Shown here: positions 4,545 through 19,624 of the stretch, one piece after another
Layout: each line of letters begins with the position of its first letter
How positions within the stretch are numbered: the stretch's first letter is position 1
DNA from: Cyanobium sp. PLM2.Bin73
GTDB lineage: Bacteria; Cyanobacteriota; Cyanobacteriia; PCC-6307; Cyanobiaceae
Assembly: GCA_007694915.1 (NCBI GenBank)
Contig: REEV01000079.1
Span: 1 to 50,088, forward strand
DNA: 50,088 bases
Reading direction: 5' to 3'
Translations under genes and position numbers: made by a program
Notes under the pieces: generated by a model
Databases searched by the model: none
What the model was told of the DNA's origin: nothing
Seen by the model: only the letters and a program-made list of their open reading frames with translations

Positions 4545-5294
4545 CTAGCTCGTCGACCCCGGGCTGTCGCCCAGGAACTCCAGGATCTCCCGGTCGCGCA
4601 GGTTCTGGGCCAGGCCGCCGCAGGGCTGGTGCAGCGGCCGGCCGGCGGCAATCTCCTGCAGGCAGGCCTGGGTGCGGGCCAGCTCGCTCTCCAGGGCGTC
4701 GATGCGCTCCATCAGGTTGCGGATCACCCGCGCCTCGGTGTCGGGCAGGGCCGAGTGGGCCAGCGGATCCACGCGCACGCCGCTCTGGTGCACCACCCGC
4801 CCCGGGATGCCCACCACCGTGCAGTTCGGCTCCACGTCGCTCAGCACCACTGAGCCGGCGCCGATGCGGGTGTTGGCCCCCACCGTGATCGCCCCCAGCA
4901 CCTTGGCGCCGGCGCCAACCACCACGTTCGGCGCCAGGGTGGGGTGGCGCTTGCCGTGGGCCTTGCCCGTGCCCCCCAGGGTCACCCCCTGATACAGCAG
5001 GCACTGATCGCCGATCTCGGCCGTCTCGCCGATCACCACCCCCATGCCGTGGTCGATGAACACCCCGTGGCCGATCCGCGCCCCGGGGTGGATCTCCACG
5101 CCCGTGAGCAGGCGCCCCAGCTGGCTGAGCATCCGCGCCGCCAGCGGCAGGCGCAGCCGCCAGAGGCTGTGGCTGAGCCGGTGCAGCATCAGGGCATGCA
5201 GCCCCGGATAGCAGAGCAGGATCTCCAGCGGCCCACGGGCGGCGGGATCCCGCTCCTGGATGATCGCCAGGTCGGCGCGGATGGCCTTGAACAT
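4545..5294 (-). CDS. cysE: Serine O-acetyltransferase
   Basis: The 249-residue protein makes O-acetylserine from serine and acetyl-CoA, the first step of cysteine synthesis. The N-terminal helical part (residues 1-65) is followed by a left-handed beta-helix of hexapeptide repeats: [62 protein letters not shown]. The active-site D-H of FIDHGMG and the H of KRHPTL are present. The C-terminus after residue 185 is a polar extension typical of cyanobacterial members. It is convergent with secA (26-bp gap). Its product feeds cysteine synthase, which is also in this window at 38.4 kb. Confidence 0.95.
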
Positions 5295-5321
5295 GGAGGC
5301 ATCCTGGCGGAGCGGTCGTCC

Positions 5322-5368
5322 GTTTGACCGTGGGGCCCGCCTGGGCCTGTTTGACCGTGGGGCCCGCC
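5322..5368. repeat. 20-bp direct repeat, period 27
   Basis: GTTTGACCGTGGGGCCCGCC occurs at 5322-5341 and again at 5349-5368, exactly, with 7 bases between. The pair lies just upstream of cysE (minus strand) and upstream of tRNA-Gly. Each copy contains GGGCCC. It may be a slippage duplication or paired binding sites. Confidence 0.85.
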
Positions 5369-5434
5369 GTCAGGCATGATCGCTTCGCCGACGGGCCGAG
5401 CCCCCAGGCGGGTGCGGCGTTCAGCGCTGGCCGT

Positions 5435-5506
5435 GCGGATGTAGCTCAGTGGTAGAGCATCTCCTTGCCAAGGAGAGGGTCGAGAGTTCGAATCTCTTCA
5501 TCCGCT
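5435..5506 (+). tRNA. tRNA-Gly (anticodon GCC)
   Basis: A complete 72-nt cloverleaf: acceptor GCGGATG pairs with CATCCGC (5499-5505), D-arm GCTC-AGTGGTA-GAGC, anticodon stem TCTCC/GGAGA with loop TTGCCAA and anticodon GCC at 5467-5469, and a T-arm with TTCGAAT loop. The discriminator is T, usual for tRNA-Gly. CCA is not encoded. Confidence 0.97.
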
Positions 5507-5526
5507 TGTCTTGAATCCGGCCGCCA

Positions 5527-6519
5527 TCAGGCGGCCACCAGTAGGCCGATCTCTTTGCGCAGTTCGTCGATGGTGACGGCGCCCAGGTAGCTTTGGGCGC
5601 AGTGCACCACCGGCAGGCGCATCAGCTGGCCCCGGTTCTGGCGCAGGCTCTGCTCCACCAGCGGCAGGCTGGGCCGGTCGCAGAGCACGTGGCTGGAGGC
5701 CCGCAGCAGGGCCAGTAGGCGGCTGCCGGTGTCCGGGTTGGCGGTCATCACCAGCAGCTCGTTGCCGCGCAGGCTGTGCAGGATCACCTCGGCCGCTCGC
5801 AGGATGCCGGGGCTGATGCTCACCAGCCCCACGCAGCTGCCGGTGCGCAGCTCCTTGAGCAGGTCGAGCTCGTGGCGGAAGTCGTTGAGGTCCACCGGCA
5901 CCGCCCGCACCCCGTGGCGGCGGGCGATCTCCTCCACTGGCTGCAGGAAATAGCGGCTGGTCACCACCGTGCCGTTGTTCGACTGCTCCAGCACCCCCTC
6001 CAGCTCCTCCATCGGCACAACCTCCACCGGCACCTCCAGCTTGGGGGTGAGCTCCTCGGCGATCAGCAGCGAGGCGCCCAGGTCTTCCCGCGGGGTGCTC
6101 ACCAGCACCCGGGCGCCGCAGCGCAGCCGCCAGTCGATCTCGCGGGTGAGCAGGTCGCGGGTCTGCTGCAGGGTGCAGCCGGCCTGCAGCAGGCCGTCCA
6201 CGCTCTGGCGCACCTCCCGCTCGATGTCGGGCAGCACCCGGTTGCGGGGGCCCGGCGGCGGCTTGATCTGGCGTGGCTTCTGCTGATCGCGCACGTAGAT
6301 GCCCGAGCCGGCCATGGCCTCCACCACGCCGTCGGTCTCCAGCTGGCGGTACACCTTGCTGATCGTGTTGCGGTGCAGGCCCGTCTGCATCGCCAGCTGG
6401 CGGGTGCTGGGCAGGCGGTGGCCCGGCGGGTAGTGCCGGGCCGCGATCGCGAAGCAGATCTGGTTGTACAGCTGGGTCGACGCCGGAATGTCGCTGTCCT
6501 GCTGGATGTGAAATCGCAC
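5527..6519 (-). CDS. GntR-family transcriptional regulator
   Basis: The 330-residue protein has an N-terminal GntR winged helix (residues 5-75): PASTQLYNQICFAIAARHYPPGHRLPSTRQLAMQTGLHRNTISKVYRQLETDGVVE, with the recognition helix in LHRNTISKVY. It starts with GTG (M-R-F-H-I-Q). The long C-terminal region (about 100-330) has alternating hydrophobic strands and helices (VEVVPMEEL, GLVSISPGILRAAEVI, LLVMTANPDTGSRLL) but I cannot match it to a named effector domain; it is not the aminotransferase-like MocR domain. It is divergent from the dienelactone hydrolase gene (137-bp gap), which it might regulate. The 3' end lies 20 bp from tRNA-Gly. Confidence 0.85.
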   Translation of the reverse strand: MRFHIQQDSDIPASTQLYNQICFAIAARHYPPGHRLPSTRQLAMQTGLHRNTISKVYRQLETDGVVEAMAGSGIYVRDQQKPRQIKPPPGPRNRVLPDIEREVRQSVDGLLQAGCTLQQTRDLLTREIDWRLRCGARVLVSTPREDLGASLLIAEELTPKLEVPVEVVPMEELEGVLEQSNNGTVVTSRYFLQPVEEIARRHGVRAVPVDLNDFRHELDLLKELRTGSCVGLVSISPGILRAAEVILHSLRGNELLVMTANPDTGSRLLALLRASSHVLCDRPSLPLVEQSLRQNRGQLMRLPVVHCAQSYLGAVTIDELRKEIGLLVAA

Positions 6520-6656
6520 GCCGCGCCGGGCCTCGGTTCGGGCTCACCATACGGAGCAAATCCGGCGGGGACAATCCCCCTGTTGGCATAGGCAGCTGTG
6601 CCGGTTCAGGGCCAGTTGGCGCTCTTCCAGACTGGCCTCACCCCGCCCGCTTGCCC

Positions 6657-7433: not shown

Positions 7434-8147
7434 TCAGGCCTCGGCGGGGCTGGCGGCCGGTGTTGCTGCGGAAGGTGCCGCGGTGGCGGCGGGTGCGCTG
7501 GTGGCCGGCGCGCTGGCTGGGGCCGCGGCCGGGTCGGGCTTGCTCTTGTGGCGGGTGACGGTCTTGCCGCCGCCGCCATCGCCGGCCGGGGCCTTGAGGC
7601 TGGTTTTGCGCGGGCTTAGGAACATGATCATGTTGCGGCCCTCGCGCTTGGGGGGCTGCTGGATCTCGGCCGCCGCCTCCAGATCCTTGGCCATGCGCTT
7701 GAGCAGCACTTCCGCCAGGGCCGTGTGCTGGATCTCCCGGCCGCGGAAGATCACCGTGCACTTCACCTTGTCGCCGGCCTTGAGGAAGCGGGTGGCCTGA
7801 CCGATGCGCACGTCGTAGTCGTGCTGGTCGATCTTGTAGCGCATCTTCACCTCTTTGACTTCGGTTTGATGCGATTTCTTCTTGGCCTCCTTGGCCTTCT
7901 TCTCCTGCTCAAACTTGTATTTGCCGTAGTCCATGATCCGGCACACAGGCGGATCGGCCTTCTCGCTCACCAGCACCAGGTCGAGCTCCCGGTCTTTCGA
8001 CACGCTCAGGGCCTCGTCTCTGCTGATCACGCCCAGTTGACTGCCGTCGAAATCCACCACCCGCAGCTGGGGGTAGCTGATGCGTTCGTTGATGTTGGGA
8101 AGCTCCCGCACGGGAGCACGGCGGTCAAAACGGGGACGGGGTGGCAT
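7434..8147 (-). CDS. infC: Translation initiation factor IF-3
   Basis: The 237-residue protein is IF-3, which binds the 30S subunit, prevents premature 50S joining and checks start codons. The N-terminal domain ([29 protein letters not shown], residues 20-48) and the C-terminal domain ([32 protein letters not shown] onwards) are complete by about residue 185. A further stretch of about 50 residues, rich in Ala, Pro, Ser and Lys, follows; the common bacterial factor is about 180 residues. The ATG at 8147 begins [20 protein letters not shown], a normal basic leader for cyanobacteria. The gene precedes miaA by 40 bp on the same strand order (miaA stop is upstream of infC start), suggesting a miaA-infC unit or separate promoter. 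Confidence 0.95.
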
Positions 8148-8187
8148 TCAGGCGTTGGGTAGGTGTCGAAGGGTTGGATGTCTGCCT

Positions 8188-11207
<3,020 letters not shown>

Positions 11208-11208
<1 letters not shown>

Positions 11209-11543
11209 TGCCAGCGCCCGCCACCCGCGTGACGCCTGCTCCCTGGCGCGTGGCGGCCCTGCTCGGCTTTGCCCTGGTGGCTCCGGCCGGCCTGCCGGCC
11301 GGTGGGGCCGACTGGCGCCTGCCGGAACTGCGCCGCCGCCAGAGCAGCCGCGAGCCCCTGCTCTCAGTGGTGCCCCAGGCCCTGCGCTGCGCTCCGCGCC
11401 ACCAGGCACCCGCGATCAGCACCACCGCCACCGGGGTGCCCCTGCGGGTGCTGCGCCGCTGGCAGCAGCCCGGCGGCGAGCGCTGGCTGCAGGTTGAACT
11501 GCCCACCGCCAGTGGCCTGCGCCGGGGCTGGCTGGCCGGCTGA
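11208..11543 (+). CDS. Small exported SH3-like protein
   Basis: The 111-residue protein has a hydrophobic N-terminal segment (about residues 13-32, VAALLGFALVAPAGLPAGGA) fitting a signal peptide. A short domain follows (about 58-111) whose pattern VPLRVLRRWQ..GGERWLQVEL...GLRRGWLAG resembles a bacterial SH3 (SH3b) barrel. Its ATG overlaps the gyrB stop (TGATG), so translation is probably coupled. Function is unknown; SH3b domains often contact cell wall or peptides. High GC and codon use match the neighbours. The gene is real by coupling and signal peptide, but the domain name is tentative. Confidence 0.7.
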
Positions 11544-11566
11544 ATCCAGGCCCCGGCCCTGCCCGC

Positions 11567-12055
11567 TCAGGCCGCCAGGGCCGCCTCGATGGCCGCGGTG
11601 AGTTCGGCCCCGTCCGGCTCCACGGCGCTCTTGAAGCGGGCCAGCACCGTGCCGTCCTTGCCGATCAGGAACTTCTCGAAGTTCCAGGCCACATCCCCGG
11701 CGGGCTCCACCTGGGTGAGGGTGCTGTAGGGCTCGGTCTTGGCGCCGCTGGCGTGCACCTTGTCGAACAGCGGGAAATCGGCGCCGTAGGTGCTGGAGCA
11801 GAACTGCTGGATCTCCGGCAGGCTGGCGGGCTCCTGGCCACCGAAGTCGTTGCAGGGGAAGCCCAGCACCGTGAAGCCGCGGGGGCCGTAGGTGTCCTGG
11901 AGCTTCTGCAGCCCGGTGTACTGGCGGGTGAAGCCGCAGCGGCTGGCCACATTCACGATCAGCAGCACCTGGCCGCCCCAGTCCCCCAGGCGCCGCTCGC
12001 TGCCGCGGCTGTCGCGCACCACCACATCACTCACAGTCAGGGCCATCGGGGGCAT
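11567..12055 (-). CDS. Glutathione peroxidase-type thiol peroxidase
   Basis: The 162-residue protein belongs to the glutathione peroxidase family, which reduces hydrogen peroxide and lipid hydroperoxides. The active-site motif N-V-A-S-R-C-G-F-T has peroxidatic Cys (about residue 40) where animal enzymes use selenocysteine. The catalytic tetrad partners are visible: Gln in FPCNDFGGQEP, Trp-Asn in VAWNFEKFLI. The Cys in GFPCNDFGGQ is the position used as resolving Cys in some thioredoxin-dependent homologues, so thioredoxin may be the electron donor. Start at 12055 (MPPMALTV) has a weak GGGGA ahead; 12046 (MALTV) is an equal alternative. Convergent with the gyrB unit. Confidence 0.92.
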   Translation of the reverse strand: MPPMALTVSDVVVRDSRGSERRLGDWGGQVLLIVNVASRCGFTRQYTGLQKLQDTYGPRGFTVLGFPCNDFGGQEPASLPEIQQFCSSTYGADFPLFDKVHASGAKTEPYSTLTQVEPAGDVAWNFEKFLIGKDGTVLARFKSAVEPDGAELTAAIEAALAA

Positions 12056-12143
12056 TGGGTTCAGATCCCCGGACGCTAGCTCTCGGATTCCTGGTGCCTC
12101 CCCCGCGGCGGCCCATAAACTCTCAGGGCCCTGACAGCTGGCG

Positions 12144-13532
12144 ATGGGCGAGGCGAACGGCGTGCTGGTGCCTGAGATGGTGGCCCGCCAGCTGGAGACA
12201 CTGCTGGAAGCGGGCAATTACGACGGCGCCAAGCTGCTGCTGCAGCCGGTGCAGGAGGTGGACGCGGCCGAGGCGATCGGCGGGCTGCCGCGCACCCTGC
12301 AGGCCCTGGCCTTCCGCCTCCTGCCCAAGGATGAGGCGATCGCGGTCTACGAATACCTGCCGGTCGATGTGCAGCAGTCGCTGCTGGAGCGGCTGCGCTC
12401 CGGCGAGGTGCTGGAGCTGGTGGAGGCGATGTCGCCGGACGACCGGGCGCGGCTGTTCGATGAGCTGCCGGCCAAGGTGGTGCGGCGGCTGCAGGCCGAG
12501 CTGAGCCCGGCGGAGCGGCGGGTCACGGCCCAGCTGCTGGGCTACGCGCCGGAAACGGCCGGCCGGTTGATGACCACCGAGTTCATCGACCTGAAGGAAT
12601 TCCACAGCGTTGCCCAGGCCCTGGAGCTGGTGCGCCGCCGGGCCCGCGACACCGAAACCATCTACGCCCTCTACGTCACCGACGGCGCCCGCCACCTCAG
12701 CGGCATCCTGTCGCTGCGGGATCTGGTGGTGGCCGATCCCGACGCCCGCATCGGTGAGGTGATGACGCGGGAGGTGATCAGCGTGCGCACCGACACCGAC
12801 CAGGAGGAGGTGGCCCGCGCCATCCAGCGCTACGACTTTCTGGCCATGCCGGTGGTGGACCGGGAGCAGCGCCTGGTGGGGATCGTCACCGTGGATGACG
12901 TGATCGACGTGATCGAGCAGGAGGCCACCCGCGACATCTACGCCGCCGGCGCGGTGCAGGCCGGCGATGAGGACGACTACTTCCAGAGCAGCCTGTTCAC
13001 CGTGGTGCGGCGGCGGGTGGTGTGGCTGATGGTGCTGGTGGTGGCCAACAGCCTCACCTTCGCCGTGATTGCCCGCGAGGAGGAGATCCTCAGCCGCGTG
13101 GTGGTGCTGGCGGCCTTCATCCCGTTGCTGATCGACACCGGCGGCAACGTGGGCGCCCAGAGCTCCACGGTGGTGATCCGCGGCCTCAGCACCCAGCAGT
13201 TGCTGGTCAACGGCCGCCGCGTCACCGTGCTGCGGGAGGCGCTGGCGGGCCTGATCCTCGGCCTGATGATGCTGGTGGTGGTGGTGCCCTGGGCCTGGCA
13301 GCTGGGCGGTGAACCGATGGTGGCCTGGGCCACCGGGATCAGCCTGCTGGCGATCTCGGTGCTGGCGGCCACCGCCGGCTCGGCCCTGCCGCTGCTGTTT
13401 GCCCGGCTCGGCTTCGATCCGGCGCTGATGTCGGCGCCCTTCATTACCACCGCCGTGGATGTGGTGGGGGTGTTCATCTACCTGCGCGTGGCCCGCCTGC
13501 TGCTGCCGGCGTTGGCGGGAGGTGCGGCATGA
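12144..13532 (+). CDS. mgtE: Magnesium transporter MgtE, copy 1
   Basis: The 462-residue protein is a complete MgtE Mg2+ channel. The cytosolic N domain with helical repeats occupies residues about 15-135, the paired CBS domains about 140-265 (ILSLRDLVVADPDARIGEVM, AMPVVDREQRLVGIVTVDDVID), and a five-helix membrane domain about 290-455. IPLLIDTGGNVGAQSSTVVIRGL is the conserved pore segment. In known members the N/CBS domains close the pore at high Mg2+. The stop overlaps the ATG of a second mgtE (ATGA). Residues about 88-280 are encoded by DNA identical to the second copy; the ends are diverged. Confidence 0.95.
   Translation: MGEANGVLVPEMVARQLETLLEAGNYDGAKLLLQPVQEVDAAEAIGGLPRTLQALAFRLLPKDEAIAVYEYLPVDVQQSLLERLRSGEVLELVEAMSPDDRARLFDELPAKVVRRLQAELSPAERRVTAQLLGYAPETAGRLMTTEFIDLKEFHSVAQALELVRRRARDTETIYALYVTDGARHLSGILSLRDLVVADPDARIGEVMTREVISVRTDTDQEEVARAIQRYDFLAMPVVDREQRLVGIVTVDDVIDVIEQEATRDIYAAGAVQAGDEDDYFQSSLFTVVRRRVVWLMVLVVANSLTFAVIAREEEILSRVVVLAAFIPLLIDTGGNVGAQSSTVVIRGLSTQQLLVNGRRVTVLREALAGLILGLMMLVVVVPWAWQLGGEPMVAWATGISLLAISVLAATAGSALPLLFARLGFDPALMSAPFITTAVDVVGVFIYLRVARLLLPALAGGAA
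12405..12984 (+). repeat. Direct repeat copy 1 (580 bp, no mismatch)
   Basis: By base-by-base reading this tract equals 13814-14393, at an offset of 1409. It is bounded by mismatches at 12404 (C versus T) and 12985 (A versus G). It covers the second half of the MgtE N domain and both CBS domains. Confidence 0.9.
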
Positions 13533-14932
13533 GCCCCTCCGCCCTGGGCAACGCCACCCCTGGTCAGCCCACGCCGGTGGCCGAGCTGGTGGCTGGCCAG
13601 CTCAAGGCCCTGCTGGAGGCCGGCAACTACGACGGCGCCAAGCTGCTGCTGCAGCCGGTGCAGGAGGTGGACGCGGCCGAAGCGATCGTGGCCCTGCCGC
13701 GCACCCTGCAGGCCCTGGCCTTCCGGCTGCTGCCCAAGGACGAGGCCATCGATATCTATGAGTACATGCCGGTGGACGTGCAGCAGTCGCTGCTGGAGCG
13801 GTTGCGCTCCGGTGAGGTGCTGGAGCTGGTGGAGGCGATGTCGCCGGACGACCGGGCGCGGCTGTTCGATGAGCTGCCGGCCAAGGTGGTGCGGCGGCTG
13901 CAGGCCGAGCTGAGCCCGGCGGAGCGGCGGGTCACGGCCCAGCTGCTGGGCTACGCGCCGGAAACGGCCGGCCGGTTGATGACCACCGAGTTCATCGACC
14001 TGAAGGAATTCCACAGCGTTGCCCAGGCCCTGGAGCTGGTGCGCCGCCGGGCCCGCGACACCGAAACCATCTACGCCCTCTACGTCACCGACGGCGCCCG
14101 CCACCTCAGCGGCATCCTGTCGCTGCGGGATCTGGTGGTGGCCGATCCCGACGCCCGCATCGGTGAGGTGATGACGCGGGAGGTGATCAGCGTGCGCACC
14201 GACACCGACCAGGAGGAGGTGGCCCGCGCCATCCAGCGCTACGACTTTCTGGCCATGCCGGTGGTGGACCGGGAGCAGCGCCTGGTGGGGATCGTCACCG
14301 TGGATGACGTGATCGACGTGATCGAGCAGGAGGCCACCCGCGACATCTACGCCGCCGGCGCGGTGCAGGCCGGCGATGAGGACGACTACTTCCGCAGCAG
14401 CCTTTTCTCGGTGGCCCGGCGCCGGGTGGTGTGGCTGCTGGTGCTGCTGGTGGCCAACTCCGGCACCTCGGCGGTGATCGCCGGCCAGGAGCGGGTGCTC
14501 GAGCAGCTGGTGCTGCTGGCCGCCTTCATTCCCCTGCTCATCGGCACCGGCGGCAACGTGGGTGCCCAGAGCTCCACGGTGGTGATCCGCGGTCTGAGCA
14601 CCGAGCGCATTCACCAGTTGGGCCTGGGCAAAGCCGTGGTGCGTGAAACCGTTGCCGGCGCCTTGCTGGGGCTGCTGCTGGCCCTGGTGGTGCTGCCCTG
14701 GGCCTGGACGAGCGGCGGGCCGCTGGTGGCTGGTGCCGTGGCCGTGAGCCTGCTGGCGATCAGCATCCTGGCGGCCACCGCCGGCGCCACCCTGCCGCTG
14801 TTGTTCGAGCGCCTGAAGCTGGATCCGGCCCTGATGTCGGCGCCCTTCATCACCACGATCGTGGACGTGGCCGGGGTGTTCATCTATCTGCAGACCGCCA
14901 GCTGGCTGTTACGCGCCAACCCCGGGCCCTGA
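13529..14932 (+). CDS. mgtE: Magnesium transporter MgtE, copy 2
   Basis: The 467-residue paralogue has the same architecture as the gene before it: N domain, CBS pair, five-helix pore with IPLLIGTGGNVGAQSSTVVIRGL. Its ATG overlaps the first copy's TGA by four bases, so the pair is almost certainly cotranscribed. The cytosolic regulatory part is identical to copy 1. The first 28 residues and the membrane domain differ at many positions (TSAVIAGQERVLEQLV versus TFAVIAREEEILSRVV; ERIHQLGLGKAVV versus QQLLVNGRRVTVL). MgtE works as a homodimer, so a mixed channel with a shared gate is possible but is inference. No stop or frameshift is present. Confidence 0.95.
   Translation: MSPSALGNATPGQPTPVAELVAGQLKALLEAGNYDGAKLLLQPVQEVDAAEAIVALPRTLQALAFRLLPKDEAIDIYEYMPVDVQQSLLERLRSGEVLELVEAMSPDDRARLFDELPAKVVRRLQAELSPAERRVTAQLLGYAPETAGRLMTTEFIDLKEFHSVAQALELVRRRARDTETIYALYVTDGARHLSGILSLRDLVVADPDARIGEVMTREVISVRTDTDQEEVARAIQRYDFLAMPVVDREQRLVGIVTVDDVIDVIEQEATRDIYAAGAVQAGDEDDYFRSSLFSVARRRVVWLLVLLVANSGTSAVIAGQERVLEQLVLLAAFIPLLIGTGGNVGAQSSTVVIRGLSTERIHQLGLGKAVVRETVAGALLGLLLALVVLPWAWTSGGPLVAGAVAVSLLAISILAATAGATLPLLFERLKLDPALMSAPFITTIVDVAGVFIYLQTASWLLRANPGP
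13814..14393 (+). repeat. Direct repeat copy 2 (580 bp, no mismatch)
   Basis: Identical to 12405-12984. Synonymous positions are also unchanged, whereas the sequence on both sides differs every few codons. This boundary pattern fits gene conversion rather than purifying selection. Confidence 0.9.
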
Positions 14933-15019
14933 GCGCGGGCTTCAGGGTGGACCAGGGCTGGGGTAGGCCCGCCGCGGCAACCCGAACCACCAGATGAGAG
15001 GACGTTCACAGTTCTTCAG

Positions 15020-15036
15020 GTTAGGCTTTACCTAAC
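15020..15036. promoter_or_regulatory. Inverted repeat plus -10-like hexamer before the sigma gene
   Basis: GTTAGG (15020-15025) and CCTAAC (15031-15036) form a 6-bp dyad around CTTTA. TAGGCT at 15022-15027 within it matches the recurrent -10-like hexamer, 25 bases before the ATG. If both readings hold, a regulator bound to the dyad would mask the promoter of the sigma gene. Confidence 0.4.
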
Positions 15037-15051
15037 TTCAAGCCCAGCGCC

Positions 15052-16143
15052 ATGACCCCCGCAGTGGCTTCCGTCCAGGACCGTCCCAGCACCGACCAGA
15101 CCGGCGCCCCCAGGGCCGCGGCCGCCTCAGGCGGCGAACGCAAGCTATCCCTGGCCCCCAAAACCCGCTCCCAGCCCGCCGCCGATGGCGACCTGGTGCG
15201 CAGCTACCTGCGTGACATCGGCCGGGTGCCGCTGCTGAGCCACGAGCAGGAGATCACCCTGGGCCGCCAGGTGCAGGAGCTGATGGCGCTGGAGGAGATC
15301 GAGCAGGAGCTGACGATGCGCGCCGGCGGCAGCGCCCCGAGCGCCGCTGAGCTGGCGGCGGCGGCGGGCCTGAGCCCGCAGCTGCTGAAGAAGCGTCTGC
15401 AGGCGGGCCGCCGGGCGAAGGAGCGGATGGTGGCGGCGAACCTGCGGCTGGTGGTGAGCGTGGCGAAGAAATACACCAAGCGGAACATGGAACTGCTGGA
15501 TCTGATCCAGGAGGGCACGATCGGGCTGGTGCGGGGTGTGGAGAAGTTCGACCCCACCCGCGGCTACAAGTTCAGTACGTATGCGTACTGGTGGATCCGG
15601 CAGGGGATCACGCGGGCGATTGCCGAGAAGAGCCGCACGATCCGGCTGCCGATCCACATCACCGAGACGCTGAACAAGTTGAAGAAGGGCCAGCGGGAGC
15701 TGAGCCAGACGCTGGGCCGCACGCCGACGGTGACGGAACTGGCGGAGTTCGTGGAGCTCCCCGAGGAGGAGGTGAAGGACCTGCTGTGCCGTGCGCGCCA
15801 GCCGGTGAGCCTGGAGACGAAGGTGGGCGACGGCGAGGACACCGAACTGCTGGAGCTGCTGGCGGGTGACGAGGAACTGCCGGAGGAGCGTGTGGACGGG
15901 GAGTGCCTGAAGGGCGACCTGCGGGCGCTGCTGGAGCAACTGCCGGAACTGCAGGGGCGGGTGCTGAAGATGCGCTACGGCATCCCCTGTGCCGACGTGC
16001 CCGAGGGCACCGAGCCCATGAGCCTCACCGGCATCGGCCGGGTGATCGGCATCAGCCGCGACCGGGTGCGCAACCTCGAGCGCGACGCCCTGGCCCGGCT
16101 GCGCCAGCTCGGTGACGCGGTGGAGGCCTACGTGGCCAGCTGA
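15052..16143 (+). CDS. Group-2 RNA polymerase sigma-70 factor
   Basis: The 363-residue protein has a short N-terminus followed by sigma region 1.2 (DLVRSYLRDIGRVPLLSHEQEI, residues 44-65), region 2 (ANLRLVVSVAKKYTKRNMELLDLIQEGTIGLVRGVEKFDPTRGYKFSTYAYWWIRQGITRAI), region 3 (PIHITETLNKLKK...), and region 4 with helix-turn-helix LTGIGRVIGISRDRVRNLERDALARLR. It lacks the long region 1.1 and non-conserved segment of the primary factor, and region 2.4 is near-canonical, so it is a non-essential group-2 factor recognising RpoD-like promoters. Which of SigB-E it corresponds to cannot be told. Its region 4 contains CADVPEGTEPMS, an insertion before the HTH. A 12-bp tandem repeat spans its stop. Confidence 0.93.
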   Translation: MTPAVASVQDRPSTDQTGAPRAAAASGGERKLSLAPKTRSQPAADGDLVRSYLRDIGRVPLLSHEQEITLGRQVQELMALEEIEQELTMRAGGSAPSAAELAAAAGLSPQLLKKRLQAGRRAKERMVAANLRLVVSVAKKYTKRNMELLDLIQEGTIGLVRGVEKFDPTRGYKFSTYAYWWIRQGITRAIAEKSRTIRLPIHITETLNKLKKGQRELSQTLGRTPTVTELAEFVELPEEEVKDLLCRARQPVSLETKVGDGEDTELLELLAGDEELPEERVDGECLKGDLRALLEQLPELQGRVLKMRYGIPCADVPEGTEPMSLTGIGRVIGISRDRVRNLERDALARLRQLGDAVEAYVAS

Positions 16144-16168
16144 GGTGCCAGCTGAGGTGCCAGCTGAG
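16136..16168 (+). repeat. 12-bp tandem repeat over the sigma gene stop
   Basis: CCAGCTGAGGTG is repeated at 16136 and 16148, with a partial third copy CCAGCTGAG at 16160-16168. Each copy carries CAGCTGA, so the TGA stop appears three times in frame at 12-base spacing. CAGCTG is itself a palindrome. Confidence 0.9.
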
Positions 16169-16262
16169 CCAGCCCGGTGCTGGTGTGGGGCCGCCGGGGG
16201 GTGCGCTTAGCTGAGCTCCCGGGCCGTCCTCAGCGGCCTTTCTTCAGCGGTGCTTCCAGGCG

Positions 16263-17930
16263 ATGGCGTTCACCAACATCTTTCATGAGCTGGCGGCAAT
16301 CCTGCTGCTCTCCGGGGTGATCGGTGCGCTGGCCCTGAAACTGCGTCAGCCGCTGATCATCGGGTACATCCTCAGCGGCATCCTCGTGGGGCCGGCGTTG
16401 CTGGGCTGGGTGTCCGGCGGCAGCGAGCTCAAGCTGCTCTCCAGCATCGGCATCTCGGTGCTGCTGTTCGTGGTGGGCCTCAAGCTCGATGTGGGCCTGA
16501 TCCGCTCGGTGGGGCCCGTGGCCCTGGCCACCGGCCTCGGCCAGATCGCCTTCACGTCGCTGTTCGGGTTTCTGCTCAGCCTGGCCTTGGGCTTCGGCCC
16601 GATGCAGGCGATCTACATCGCCGTGTGCCTCACCTTCTCCAGCACGATCATCATCGTCAAGCTGCTCTCCGACAAGCGGGAGATCGATTCGCTGCACGGG
16701 CGCATCGCGGTGGGCTTCCTGGTGGTGCAGGACATTGCCGTGATCCTGGCGATGATCCTGCTCACCTCCTTCGCCACCCAGGCCGATGGCGGCATCGCCG
16801 CCCAGGCGATCCGCCTGCTGCTGGTGGGCAGCGCCTTCGTGGTCGGCACCGCCGCCACCATGCGCTGGGTGATGCCCCCCCTGCTGGGCCGCCTGGCCGC
16901 CAACCAGGAGCTGCTGGTGCTGTTCGCCGTGGCCTGGGCCGTGGGCCTGGCCGCCCTCGCCGACGCCGTGGACTTCAGCAAGGAGGTGGGGGCGTTCCTG
17001 GGCGGCGTGTCGATCGCCTCCACGCCCTACCGGGAGGCGATCGCCTCCCGGCTCACCGGCCTGCGCGATTTCCTGCTGCTGTTCTTCTTCATCGATCTCG
17101 GCTCCGGCCTCAACCTCTCGGCCGCCGGGCTGCAGCTCTGGCCGGCCTTGGTGCTGTCGGTGTTCGTGCTGGTGGGCAACCCGCTGATCGTGGTGGCGAT
17201 CATGGGGGTGATGGGCTACCGGCGCCGCACCGGCCTGCTGGCGGGCCTCACCGTGGCCCAGATCTCCGAATTCTCGCTGATCCTGGCCGCCCTGGGCCTG
17301 CAGCTGGGTCAGATCGGCGAGGGGGAGCTCAGCCTGATCACCCTGGTGGGTGTGATCACGATCGGCCTGTCCACCTACATGATCCTGGGCTCCGAGCGGC
17401 TCTACCAGTGGCTGCAGGGACCGCTGCGGCTGTTCGAGCGCGCCAACCCCTTCAGTGAGATCGCCGGCACGGCCTCCGGGCCCACCCGGGTGGACGTGAT
17501 CCTGCTGGGGCTGGGCCGCTTCGGCGGCGCCATCCACCGCCAGCTGCGGCCCCACAACCTCTCGATCCTGGGCATCGACTTCGACCCCCAGGCCTTGCGC
17601 CTGGCCGCCGCCCAGGGGCTGCCGGTGCAGTACGGGGATTCGGAGGATCCGGAGTTCACCGCCTCGCTTCCCCTCTCCTCGGCCACGGTGGTGGTGAGCA
17701 CCCTCCCCTCGCTGGAGGCCAACACCGCCATTCACCACGGCCTGCACGCCGCTGGGTTCCGGGGCCATTTCATTGCCACCGCCCACGACGAGGCGGAAGT
17801 GGCCAAGCTCCAGTTCCTGGGCGCCCAGCGCACCCTGCTGCCCTTCCTGGATGCCGCCGAGCGGGCCGCCGAGGTGATCGTGGACGACCTGATGGAGCTG
17901 CGCGCTCAGCCGGCCGCCGGAGCCGCCTGA
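16263..17930 (+). CDS. KefB-type cation:proton antiporter (CPA2) with TrkA-N domain
   Basis: The 555-residue membrane protein has about 11-13 hydrophobic segments over residues 5-395, beginning HELAAILLLSGVIGALALKLRQPLIIGYILSGILVGP, the normal CPA2 start. GFLVVQDIAVILAMILL includes the Q-D of the ion-binding helix. After residue 400 comes a Rossmann TrkA-N domain: DVILLGLGRFGGAIHRQLRP (G-L-G-R-F-G-G), then LGIDFDPQALRLAAAQGLPVQYGDSEDPEF, which would sense NAD(H) or a related ligand. It probably exports K+ or Na+ in exchange for H+; ion choice cannot be read from sequence. Its last 25 bases overlap the convergent CvrA-type gene. Confidence 0.92.
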   Translation: MAFTNIFHELAAILLLSGVIGALALKLRQPLIIGYILSGILVGPALLGWVSGGSELKLLSSIGISVLLFVVGLKLDVGLIRSVGPVALATGLGQIAFTSLFGFLLSLALGFGPMQAIYIAVCLTFSSTIIIVKLLSDKREIDSLHGRIAVGFLVVQDIAVILAMILLTSFATQADGGIAAQAIRLLLVGSAFVVGTAATMRWVMPPLLGRLAANQELLVLFAVAWAVGLAALADAVDFSKEVGAFLGGVSIASTPYREAIASRLTGLRDFLLLFFFIDLGSGLNLSAAGLQLWPALVLSVFVLVGNPLIVVAIMGVMGYRRRTGLLAGLTVAQISEFSLILAALGLQLGQIGEGELSLITLVGVITIGLSTYMILGSERLYQWLQGPLRLFERANPFSEIAGTASGPTRVDVILLGLGRFGGAIHRQLRPHNLSILGIDFDPQALRLAAAQGLPVQYGDSEDPEFTASLPLSSATVVVSTLPSLEANTAIHHGLHAAGFRGHFIATAHDEAEVAKLQFLGAQRTLLPFLDAAERAAEVIVDDLMELRAQPAAGAA

Positions 17931-19624
17931 ACCGCGGAGCGGGGCGTGTGCACCCGCACCCCATCGGCATCGGGGCCGGGCTGGATCGTCAGCGGCCCGA
18001 ACCGGGCGGACTGCCCGGCCTGCTGCTGCTCGAGCACATGCTCCAGGGTCTGGGCGGCCGCGGCCGCCGCCAGCCGTTCGTCGAGGGCGAAGAACCGCTT
18101 CAGCTGCCCCAGCGTGGTGTAGGCGGGAAAGCGCAGCTCCAGATCCGTCGGCAGCGGTCGCTCCATCGCCTCGGGGCTGAACAGCCGGTCGATCAGCGGT
18201 TTCACGTGGTTGCGCAGGGCCACGAACACATGGTCGCCGGGCTCGAGGGCCGTGGCTCCGCGCGGGATCACCACCTGCCGGCGGCGCACCACCAGGGTCA
18301 CCACCATGCCGTCCGGCCGGCCCATCTCCCGCAGCTTCAGCCCCGCCGCCGGCGCTCCCGCGCGCACGGTGTAGTCCACGATCTCCCCATCCACATGGCG
18401 CAGGGCATTGATCTCCATCGAGAGCGGCGGCGTGGGATCGGCCGGGCGACCGAGCCGCAGCCGGCGCGCCACGGCGGGCAGCGACCAGCCCTGGCTGACG
18501 GCCGAGATCAGCACCACGAAGAACACGGCGTTGAAGATCACCTGGCTGCCGGGAACCCCGGCCATCAGCGGGAAGGTGGCCAGGGTGATCGGCACGGCTC
18601 CCTTCAGCCCCACCCAGGAGAGCAGGATCAGCTCCCGGACGTTGTAGCGAAACGGGCTAGCCGCGATCAGCACGGCGATCGGCCGGGCCACCAGGATCAG
18701 CACCAGGGCGATCAGCAGACCCTCGCCGGCCACCGCCGCCAGGCGGCTCGGGAAGCTCAGCAGGCCCAGCATCACGAACAGCGCGATCTGTCCCAGCCAG
18801 GCGGCGGCGTCATGGAACAGGAAGATGCCGCTGCGCCACACGATCGGGCTGCTGCCTAGCACGATCCCGGCGAGATACACGGCCAGAAAGCCACTGCCGC
18901 CCAGCACCGCTGCCAGCCCGAAGGCCAGCAGCCCGAAGGCCAGGGCCAGCAGGGGATAGAGGCCGGGGTAGTCGAGATTGATCCGGTTCACAGCCAGTCC
19001 CGCCAGCCGCCCCACCCCCACCCCCACGAGCGTGCCCACGCCGAACTGGGTGACGAACAGCAGCAGCAGTTCAGCGGCGGAGCCGGCCTCTCCGTTGATC
19101 AGGCTGATCAGGCCGATCGTGAGAAAGATCGCCATCGGGTCGTTGGAGCCGCTCTCCACCTCGAGGGTGGCCGTCAGCCGCTCCGGCAGCCGCAGGCCGC
19201 CGGTGCGCAGCACCGAGAACACGGCCGCCGCGTCGGTGGATCCCACGATGCTGCCCAGCAGCAGCCCCTGCAGCAGCGACATCTGCAGGATCCAGGCCGC
19301 CGCCAGACCGGTGATCACCGAGGTGAGCAGCACCCCCACGGTGGAGAGGGCCAGGGCCTGCCGCCACACCTGCCGCACGCTCGTGATCGAGGTGCGCAGA
19401 CCGCCGTCGAAGAGGATCAGGGCCAGGGCAGCACTGCTCAGGCTGCTGGCCATCGGGTAGTTCTCGAAGGGGATGCGGCCGATGCCCTCGGAGCCGGCCA
19501 GCATGCCCACGGCCAGGAACAGCACCAGCACCGGCATGCCCAGCCGCGCTGAAAACTTGCTGGAGGCGATGCCGATCAGCAGCAGCACCCCCGCCAGCAG
19601 CATCGTCGCGTTGAAACCATCCAT
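17906..19624 (-). CDS. CvrA/NhaP2-type potassium:proton antiporter (CPA1)
   Basis: The 572-residue protein has about 12 membrane segments (residues 5-395), starting NATMLLAGVLLLIGIASSKFSARLGMPVLVLFLAVGMLAGSEGIG. The CPA1 signature GSIVGSTDAAAVFSVLRTGGLRLPERLTATLEVESGSNDP carries the paired acidic/Asn residues (E-S-G-S-N-D-P). A TrkA-C-like ligand domain (EIVDYTVRAGAPAAGLKLREMGRP...LVVRRRQVVIPRGATALEPGDHVFVAL) follows at about 410-480, then a C-terminal domain of the transporter-associated (CorC/HlyC) kind ending near 555. This layout is that of E. coli CvrA/NhaP2. It converges with and overlaps the KefB-type gene; together they would set cytosolic K+/Na+ and pH. Confidence 0.92.
   Translation of the reverse strand: MDGFNATMLLAGVLLLIGIASSKFSARLGMPVLVLFLAVGMLAGSEGIGRIPFENYPMASSLSSAALALILFDGGLRTSITSVRQVWRQALALSTVGVLLTSVITGLAAAWILQMSLLQGLLLGSIVGSTDAAAVFSVLRTGGLRLPERLTATLEVESGSNDPMAIFLTIGLISLINGEAGSAAELLLLFVTQFGVGTLVGVGVGRLAGLAVNRINLDYPGLYPLLALAFGLLAFGLAAVLGGSGFLAVYLAGIVLGSSPIVWRSGIFLFHDAAAWLGQIALFVMLGLLSFPSRLAAVAGEGLLIALVLILVARPIAVLIAASPFRYNVRELILLSWVGLKGAVPITLATFPLMAGVPGSQVIFNAVFFVVLISAVSQGWSLPAVARRLRLGRPADPTPPLSMEINALRHVDGEIVDYTVRAGAPAAGLKLREMGRPDGMVVTLVVRRRQVVIPRGATALEPGDHVFVALRNHVKPLIDRLFSPEAMERPLPTDLELRFPAYTTLGQLKRFFALDERLAAAAAAQTLEHVLEQQQAGQSARFGPLTIQPGPDADGVRVHTPRSAVQAAPAAG

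Follow-up and report, generated by a model that had tools for sequence, protein, structure and literature searches.

Why would two neighboring genes for the same kind of channel be identical in one half and remain distinct in the other? The window analyzed here, i.e., the whole stretch of 50,088 nucleotides of contig REEV01000079.1 from Cyanobium sp. PLM2.Bin73, raises this question at a tandem pair of mgtE genes, mgtE-A and mgtE-B (A and B in the following), which share a long mismatch-free tract in the region encoding their Mg2+ sensor and differ on either side of it. In the draft assembly, which comprises 2.72 Mb in 137 contigs, the window is contig 107, and we refer to its genome as G000. 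Comparing this pair with those of three genomes of the same genus (G004, G007, and G012), we conclude that, judging from the sequences, gene conversion has almost certainly recurred in the cytoplasmic half of these genes. Domain-limited concerted evolution of an old tandem MgtE pair is overall the best explanation of the data, and we give it a probability of roughly 0.75.

An exact comparison of A and B places their longest mismatch-free run at 580 bp with an offset of 1409, and the identity that a first-pass annotation of this DNA had read between the two genes is exact to the base (Table 1). The tract covers the second half of the N domain, CBS1, CBS2, the plug helix, and the linker before transmembrane (TM) helix 1. 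The plug was assigned by alignment with the MgtE of Thermus thermophilus (Tt), whose residues Ile260 and Leu263, described as plug residues (PMC5882242), align with A residues 265 and 268; a low-confidence AlphaFold2 model of A predicts helices at residues 250-267 and 279-311. The flanks diverge, as had also been claimed: A and B of G000 differ at 20/192 bases over residues 24-87 and at 134/504 over residues 284-452, as compared to 0/579 over residues 88-280. In run-length permutations, 0/10,000 reached the observed run in G000, both with all 553 variable sites and with the 329 variable third positions alone. The same procedure gave 0/10,000 in each of the four genomes for all variable sites and, for third positions only, 0/10,000 for G000, G004, and G007 and 19/10,000 for G012.

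By sequence, A and B are members of the MgtE Mg2+ channel family. Both open reading frames (ORFs) are open, and both proteins match PF03448 (MgtE_N), PF00571 (CBS), and PF01769 (MgtE). Against TIGR00400 (magnesium transporter MgtE; cut-off 232.75), A scores 508.7 bits (E 1.3e-152) and B 519.1 bits (E 9e-156), and both match the T. thermophilus MgtE in PDB 2yvx by sequence (E 2.9e-87 for A and 3.8e-89 for B). The two genes had been described as overlapping, and they do share an ATGA motif; this overlap is present in 4/4 pairs, based on ORF coordinates in G012 and G007 and on the sequence in G004, and translation of A and B is probably coupled through it. No RNA family, including the Mg2+ riboswitch, was found near the genes at E 0.1 within positions 8000-18000. 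A scan of positions 12000-15200 found no promoter and a single terminator-like site, inside B, which is within chance expectation. A third, distant MgtE (37% identical) is encoded on contig 36 of the window genome (L001).

Is the tract peculiar to the window? Using A numbering, we divided the proteins into a cytoplasmic half (residues 24-280) and a membrane half (residues 281-452). Within each of the four genomes, A and B are similar in the cytoplasmic half and far less so in the membrane half. The longest A/B-identical runs are 580 bp in G000 (residues 88-281), 839 bp in G004 (residues 1-281), 406 and 122 bp in G007, and 118 and 60 bp in G012; these differing extents point to independent events per lineage, and the right edge common to the G000 and G004 tracts is the first A/B-specific site. 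We then counted sites that unite A and B of the same genome versus sites that unite orthologues. For the cytoplasmic and the membrane half, these counts are 105:0 and 4:44 for G000-G004, 52:0 and 4:73 for G000-G007, 89:0 and 9:47 for G007-G004, 92:0 and 7:46 for G012-G004, 44:9 and 4:70 for G012-G007, and 7:17 and 0:114 for G000-G012. Thus, a likeness of the pair within its own genome that is confined to one part of the protein is seen across several species, and all genome pairs except G000-G012 are positive in the test proposed by the first-pass annotation, i.e., whether the pair is closer to itself than to orthologues only here. For G000-G012, the likeness holds for only part of the region, and none of the 17 orthologue-type cytoplasmic sites falls within the window's tract, as all are found at residues 25-75. 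Altogether, the suggested recent gene conversion limited to the second half of the N domain and the CBS domains was borne out, with the plug helix included; it is, however, more than the single event described there, as conversion has recurred in the lineage and the tract in the window is a mosaic.

Phylogenetic trees separate the two histories. The alignment holds 116 rows, i.e., four A copies, four B copies, and 108 single-copy genes, of which many are close relatives of each other; the latter are 97 of 138 candidates (after removal of identical cores and of candidates not covering query residues 20-440) plus 11 chosen earlier, and the trees took in 41 of the 116 rows. In the cytoplasmic tree, A and B of G007 pair with each other (support 100/98), A and B of G004 are identical, and the four copies from G000 and G012 cluster together. 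In the membrane tree, by contrast, the four A copies form a clade (100/99), and so do the four B copies together with the only mgtE gene of a further genome, G005 (100/99). Constraining the four A copies to group together in the cytoplasmic half, with the identical G004 pair left free, was rejected in the approximately unbiased (AU) test (p 2e-46), and constraining A and B of G000 to group together in the membrane half was rejected with p 1e-74. Because the membrane clades of A and B each span the four genomes, the separation of A and B predates the split of these genomes.

The likeness of the cytoplasmic halves is not mere conservation. Amino acid columns in which A and B share no residue (A/B-disjoint columns) number 0/257 in the cytoplasmic half (residues 24-280) and 35/172 in the membrane half (residues 281-452); outside both halves, residues 1 and 455 are of this type. 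Considering only positions that vary among the single-copy rows (entropy ≥0.8), the contrast is 0/51 versus 28/61, and it is this contrast that argues against conservation as the cause. As a control, we made 15 comparisons among six groups of four single-copy rows: 14 had 2-21 disjoint cytoplasmic columns and one had 0, where the groups were chosen by us from the trees and some (x009, x058, and x056) are not clades in both trees.

In the window, the last homogenization appears to be young and composite. Over residues 88-280, A and B of G000 differ at 0/579 bases, whereas A of G000 differs from A of G012 at 20/579 and B of G000 from B of G012 at 32/579; by the clock of these orthologues, we infer that the last homogenization in G000 is much younger than the G000-G012 split. 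Where A and B of G012 differ, the base common to both G000 copies matches G012 A at 21/23 sites in residues 115-197 and G012 B at 10/10 sites in residues 204-242, and four later sites match A, A, B, and A in turn. Polarized by G007, four sites at residues 121-172 have a derived base that A and B of G000 share with G012 A only, and four sites at residues 204-232 have a derived base that they share with G012 B only. These patterns suggest that in G000 the CBS1 stretch of B probably came from A and the CBS2 stretch of A probably from B. An A-type block followed by a B-type block implies at least two conversion events, or one with a switch. At residues 155-175, old A- and B-specific versions are kept in G007 and G012 (9 sites) and have been overwritten in G000.

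Table 1. Features of the tandem mgtE locus, with positions in the window
Feature	Positions	Strand	Description
mgtE-A	12144-13532	+	462 aa; N domain, two CBS domains, plug, MgtE membrane domain
mgtE-B	13529-14932	+	467 aa; domain order as in mgtE-A
ATGA	13529-13532	+	stop of A overlaps start of B; read directly
Identical tract, A copy	12405-12984	+	580 identical bases; residue 88 to first base of codon 281
Identical tract, B copy	13814-14393	+	580 identical bases
A residues 24-87, first half of N domain	12213-12404	+	not homogenized in G000; 20/192 bases differ from B
A membrane domain	12987-13529	+	residues 282-462; A lineage in all four genomes (membrane tree, 100/99)
B membrane domain	14396-14929	+	B lineage (membrane tree, clade with G005, 100/99)
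A residue 67	12342-12344	+	Ala at Mg7-ligand position (Tt Glu59); by alignment
B residue 75	13751-13753	+	Asp at Mg7-ligand position (Tt Glu59); by alignment
A residue 331	13134-13136	+	Asp at Tt Gly325 position (TM2 kink); by alignment

What, then, stays different between the two channels? The first-pass annotation considered the pore regions free to diverge. Our data do not support this wording, since just 4 of the 35 A/B-fixed membrane residues lie in the modelled pore-lining helices TM2 and TM5, at helix ends in a low-confidence model. This AlphaFold2 model of A was made from 18 sequences (mean predicted local distance difference test score 55.2, predicted template modelling score 0.34), and only its helix limits were used, as weak support. 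Per modelled helix, A/B-specific residues number 6/33 in TM1, 2/35 in TM2, 10/31 in TM3, 6/31 in TM4, and 2/23 in TM5, and 22/95 in TM1, TM3, and TM4 taken together. The stretches 320-351 and 415-447 contain 0/65 A/B-disjoint positions versus 35/107 elsewhere in the membrane half, with a Fisher p of 6e-9 that carries little weight, as the limits were drawn after the sites had been seen and have A/B-specific residues at their edges. The same stretches are strongly conserved in the single-copy rows (mean entropy 0.21 versus 0.91 in the rest of the membrane half), and the avoidance of A/B-specific sites thus reflects constraint on the pore. Moreover, the Mg1 ligand Asp432 and Gly328 in TM2 are Asp and Gly in 4/4 A copies, 4/4 B copies, and 108/108 single-copy rows; with Asp432 kept in both copies, nothing points directly to a different ion filter.

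Two membrane features stand out. A cluster of A/B-specific residues at 352-361 (Tt 346-355) lies in the cytoplasmic TM2-TM3 turn, and Tt Asp348 is listed among the residues that rotate between the Mg2+-free and Mg2+-bound structures (PMC8104411). At the position of Tt Gly325, A has Asp in G000 and G012, while Gly is found in 4/4 B copies, in A of G007 and G004, and in 108/108 single-copy rows. In the T. thermophilus protein, complementation was almost lost with Gly325Ala (PMC8104411). The distant third MgtE of the window genome naturally has Asp at this position, and Asp is thus compatible with membership in the family.

The sensors are also not entirely alike. That the channels have one shared gate, as had been proposed, holds for the tract, which is identical, and fails at the Mg7-ligand position, where A and B of G000 have different residues (Table 1) and which lies outside the homogenized tract. 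At this position, G004 has Asp in both copies and G007 has Ala in both; either Ala or Asp occupies it in G005 and in every genome with the pair, and 98/108 single-copy rows have Glu. We take Tt Asp95, Asp214, Glu216, Glu258, and Asp259 to mark further cytoplasmic Mg2+ ligand positions; that of Glu258 is Arg in all rows, and the other four are conserved in A and B, as are Tt Asp91, Asp226, Asp247, and Asp250. In the T. thermophilus structure work, Asp91/Asp247, Asp226/Asp250, and Glu59 are given as cytoplasmic Mg2+ ligands, Glu59 belongs to the Mg7 site, and its Ala mutant needed higher Mg2+ for the N-domain change (PMC5882242).

An apparent signal of adaptive divergence in the membrane halves was considered and rejected. 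Fixed nonsynonymous to synonymous (N/S) differences are 25:4, as compared to 105:123 for variable ones (Fisher p 4e-5). However, 27 further comparisons of groups of four matched this excess, with fixed N/S from 0 to 36 and 25/27 values between 2.5 and 26, counting zero synonymous differences as 0.5; the excess is due to synonymous saturation. A least-squares dN/dS (ratio of nonsynonymous to synonymous rates) of 2.1 on the A-stem branch was dropped on account of the same saturation and of the tiny dS there.

How could a pair become uniform in one half only? Most simply, we suggest that, in an old tandem MgtE pair whose translation is probably coupled via ATGA, recombination between the direct repeats ∼1.4 kb apart has repeatedly overwritten the cytoplasmic half of one copy, i.e., N domain, CBS1, CBS2, and plug helix, with that of the other, while the membrane halves retain their A and B identity. 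Conversions reaching A/B-specific membrane residues would be lost or blocked, in part because the two membrane halves may do different jobs. As a result, both channels would close at about equal internal Mg2+, could share the cytoplasmic dimer interface and possibly form mixed dimers, and would differ in their membrane part. Selection for a shared sensor, with a common set-point and possible mixed dimers, alongside distinct membrane halves is a tentative extension of this scheme that we place somewhat below even odds. It would fit with the conservation of the pair, its order, and the ATGA overlap in four genomes, with the A/B-specific residues retained in every membrane half, and with the lack of a split between cytoplasmic and membrane half in four further tandem mgtE pairs that we noticed in the class. 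Several observations weigh against it. Similarity alone can confine conversion; the membrane half of G004 seems to have been touched by conversion as well, with an 82-bp A/B-identical run at residues 319-346 (TM2); in G012, A and B differ at 37/579 bases in residues 88-280, and equality is therefore not strictly required; the homogenized part of G000 stops short of residue 67, leaving the sensors not fully equal; the fixed excess of 25 N to 4 S does not rise above the controls and is no evidence of adaptive divergence; and the pair is dispensable in G005. We consider it unlikely that A and B form a natural two-subunit channel, in which co-translation and an interchangeable sensor would lead to mixed dimers and the membrane half of A, with its own TM2-TM3 turn and, in the G000/G012 sublineage, Asp at the TM2 kink, would confer gating or conductance that a homodimer lacks.

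Neutral, homology-limited conversion would need no selection on the sensor: the slowly evolving cytoplasmic half would stay recombinable, and the membrane half would be too diverged. Among the single-copy rows, mean entropy is 0.38 in the cytoplasmic half and 0.91 in the membrane half once residues 320-351 and 415-447 are set aside. Conversion also seems to follow similarity in G004, where the 82-bp run falls in the conserved TM2 stretch, and the right edge shared by G000 and G004 sits where A/B-specific sites begin. Against this explanation, the four other tandem pairs lack the split, even if they may be too diverged to convert, and the retention of both genes and their overlap in four genomes is left unexplained; we regard it as a serious possibility with a minority share of the probability. 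An assembly artefact, in which a short-read assembler merged two similar stretches, could be suspected in a draft of 137 contigs, and a contig of a related genome (G001) does break inside the gene. However, three further genomes (G012, G004, and G007, the last of them in one contig) are organized alike and have identical runs of their own; the window's contig passes through both copies with distinct flanks; and the tract holds G012 A-type and B-type bases in two blocks, which is not the plainest outcome of a collapse, making an artefact very improbable. If a recent tandem duplication had arisen separately in each genome and the membrane halves had then diverged quickly, this would account for the clustering of the pairs by genome in the cytoplasmic half. 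This scenario is hardly credible given that the membrane halves are orthologous across the four genomes with 35 common A/B-specific residues, that the branching order of the A subtree is mirrored in the B subtree, and that the locus and the ATGA overlap are the same in all four.

Concerted evolution of the cytoplasmic half leaves the origin of A to its membrane half, because the homogenized part retains no memory of it. A might be a chimera, with the membrane half or the whole gene transferred from another picocyanobacterial lineage and the cytoplasmic half then overwritten by conversion. In line with this, A joins the single-copy gene of G222, and not B, with weak support in the best membrane trees (83/85 for DNA, 81/89 for protein), and the membrane half of A is not especially near that of its own B: by share of differing bases, 40/108 single-copy rows are nearer to A than its own B is in G000, 25 in G012, 44 in G007, and 4 in G004. 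By Nei-Gojobori (NG86) dS, valid for 67 of the 108 rows, 16/67 have a lower dS to A than its own B has in G000, 5 in G012, 42 in G007, and 1 in G004. On the other hand, the AU test does not reject A, B, and G005 as one membrane clade (p 0.18 for DNA, 0.09 for protein), whereas a clade of the eight pair copies that excludes G005, which lies inside B, has an AU p of 0.001. B is likewise nearer to 20-58 of the 108 single-copy rows than to its own A, which a duplication older than the genus fits equally, and no donor clearly near A was found, the lowest dS between any A copy and a single-copy row being 0.31. We regard a transfer as doubtful; from the sequences, either an old duplication predating the genus with losses elsewhere or a transfer would fit the membrane half of A, and a transfer would leave the conversion part of our favored explanation intact.

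The closest precedent is the pair of mammalian immune receptors TLR1/TLR6, and by analogy the mgtE pair would represent domain-limited concerted evolution of that kind. There, too, one contiguous region of tandem paralogues is closer between paralogues than between orthologues; in nine mammal species, independent conversions with recurrent boundaries are described, while the rest of the protein follows orthology and can specialize (PMC2077338). The present case differs in being a bacterial channel pair with an ATGA overlap, found in four genomes, in which the homogenized part is the channel's own Mg2+ sensor. Repeated conversion between paralogues within a genome is also known from prokaryotes, as in tuf, psbA, psbD, fla, and mtrA, with psbA and psbD in cyanobacteria (PMC6053082); a conversion stopping at a domain edge is not among the cases described in the text consulted of that source, and the word "transporter" is absent from its main text. 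With T. thermophilus MgtE, A and B share the family, the domain order, Asp432, Gly328, Gly435, and most cytoplasmic Mg2+ ligands. Unlike that protein, which is described as a homodimer (PMC8104411, PMC5882242), they are a tandem pair; Ala replaces the gate residues Asn332 and Asn424 in A as well as in B (and in 107/108 and 86/108 single-copy rows, respectively), Glu258 is replaced by Arg in all rows, and Glu59 by Ala or Asp in G000. A tandem or converted mgtE pair was not described among the open-access papers listed in the survey, mainly as titles and the starts of abstracts, which is weak evidence of absence.

On the reading proposed here, a bacterial gene pair is kept uniform in its regulatory half by conversion while its effector half persists in two versions, in at least three lineages (G000, G004, and G007). 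It makes testable, in a small system, whether the edge of a conversion tract is set by selection or by sequence similarity. The two channels would also provide a natural comparison, with near-identical sensors and different membrane halves, for the role of the membrane half in gating.

The pair has a narrow distribution. With B as the query, 100/119 related genomes have a match at E 1e-20 or better and, with A, 342/400 genomes of the family at E 1e-60 or better; among the matches listed, more than one copy occurs only in G000 (3, including that on contig 36) and in G007, G004, and G012 (2 each), where a second copy falling in the gap of a draft would be missed. All four pair-bearing genomes belong to one genus, of which 4/13 genomes examined carry the pair; that of G007 lies on a single contig of 3,180,296 bases, which we take as closed. 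Searches with A and with B found no mgtE match in G008 of the same genus. In G001 (L039, 1-411), the contig breaks inside mgtE at about residue 142-150, in the zone that is homogenized in its relatives, and the break may hide a tandem pair. The four further tandem mgtE pairs noticed in the class are L038 (G093), L155 (G552), L156 (G527), and L157 (G590), two of them from one genus; nucleotide identities of the cytoplasmic and membrane halves in the four are 74/69, 73/67, 85/80, and 75/82%, and the G590 pair, in contrast to the window's, is more similar in its membrane half than in its sensor half.

G005 has probably lost A. Upstream and at its 5' end, the single gene of this genome (L037, ∼5140-6560) is of A type; its membrane half is of B type, and the switch falls between residues 286 and 288. 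One suggestion is a pop-out deletion through recombination between the two repeats; this is weakened by Gln281, Thr286, and Ala288 being present also in 91, 80, and 106 of the 108 single-copy rows. The surroundings of the locus are stable within the genus. The upstream gene order, which we read as gyrB, a short ORF, and a glutathione peroxidase-like gene followed by mgtE, is identical in 12 genomes (all but G008). The gene following mgtE, presumably encoding a sigma factor, is the same in 11/12, the exception being G001, where the contig ends inside mgtE.

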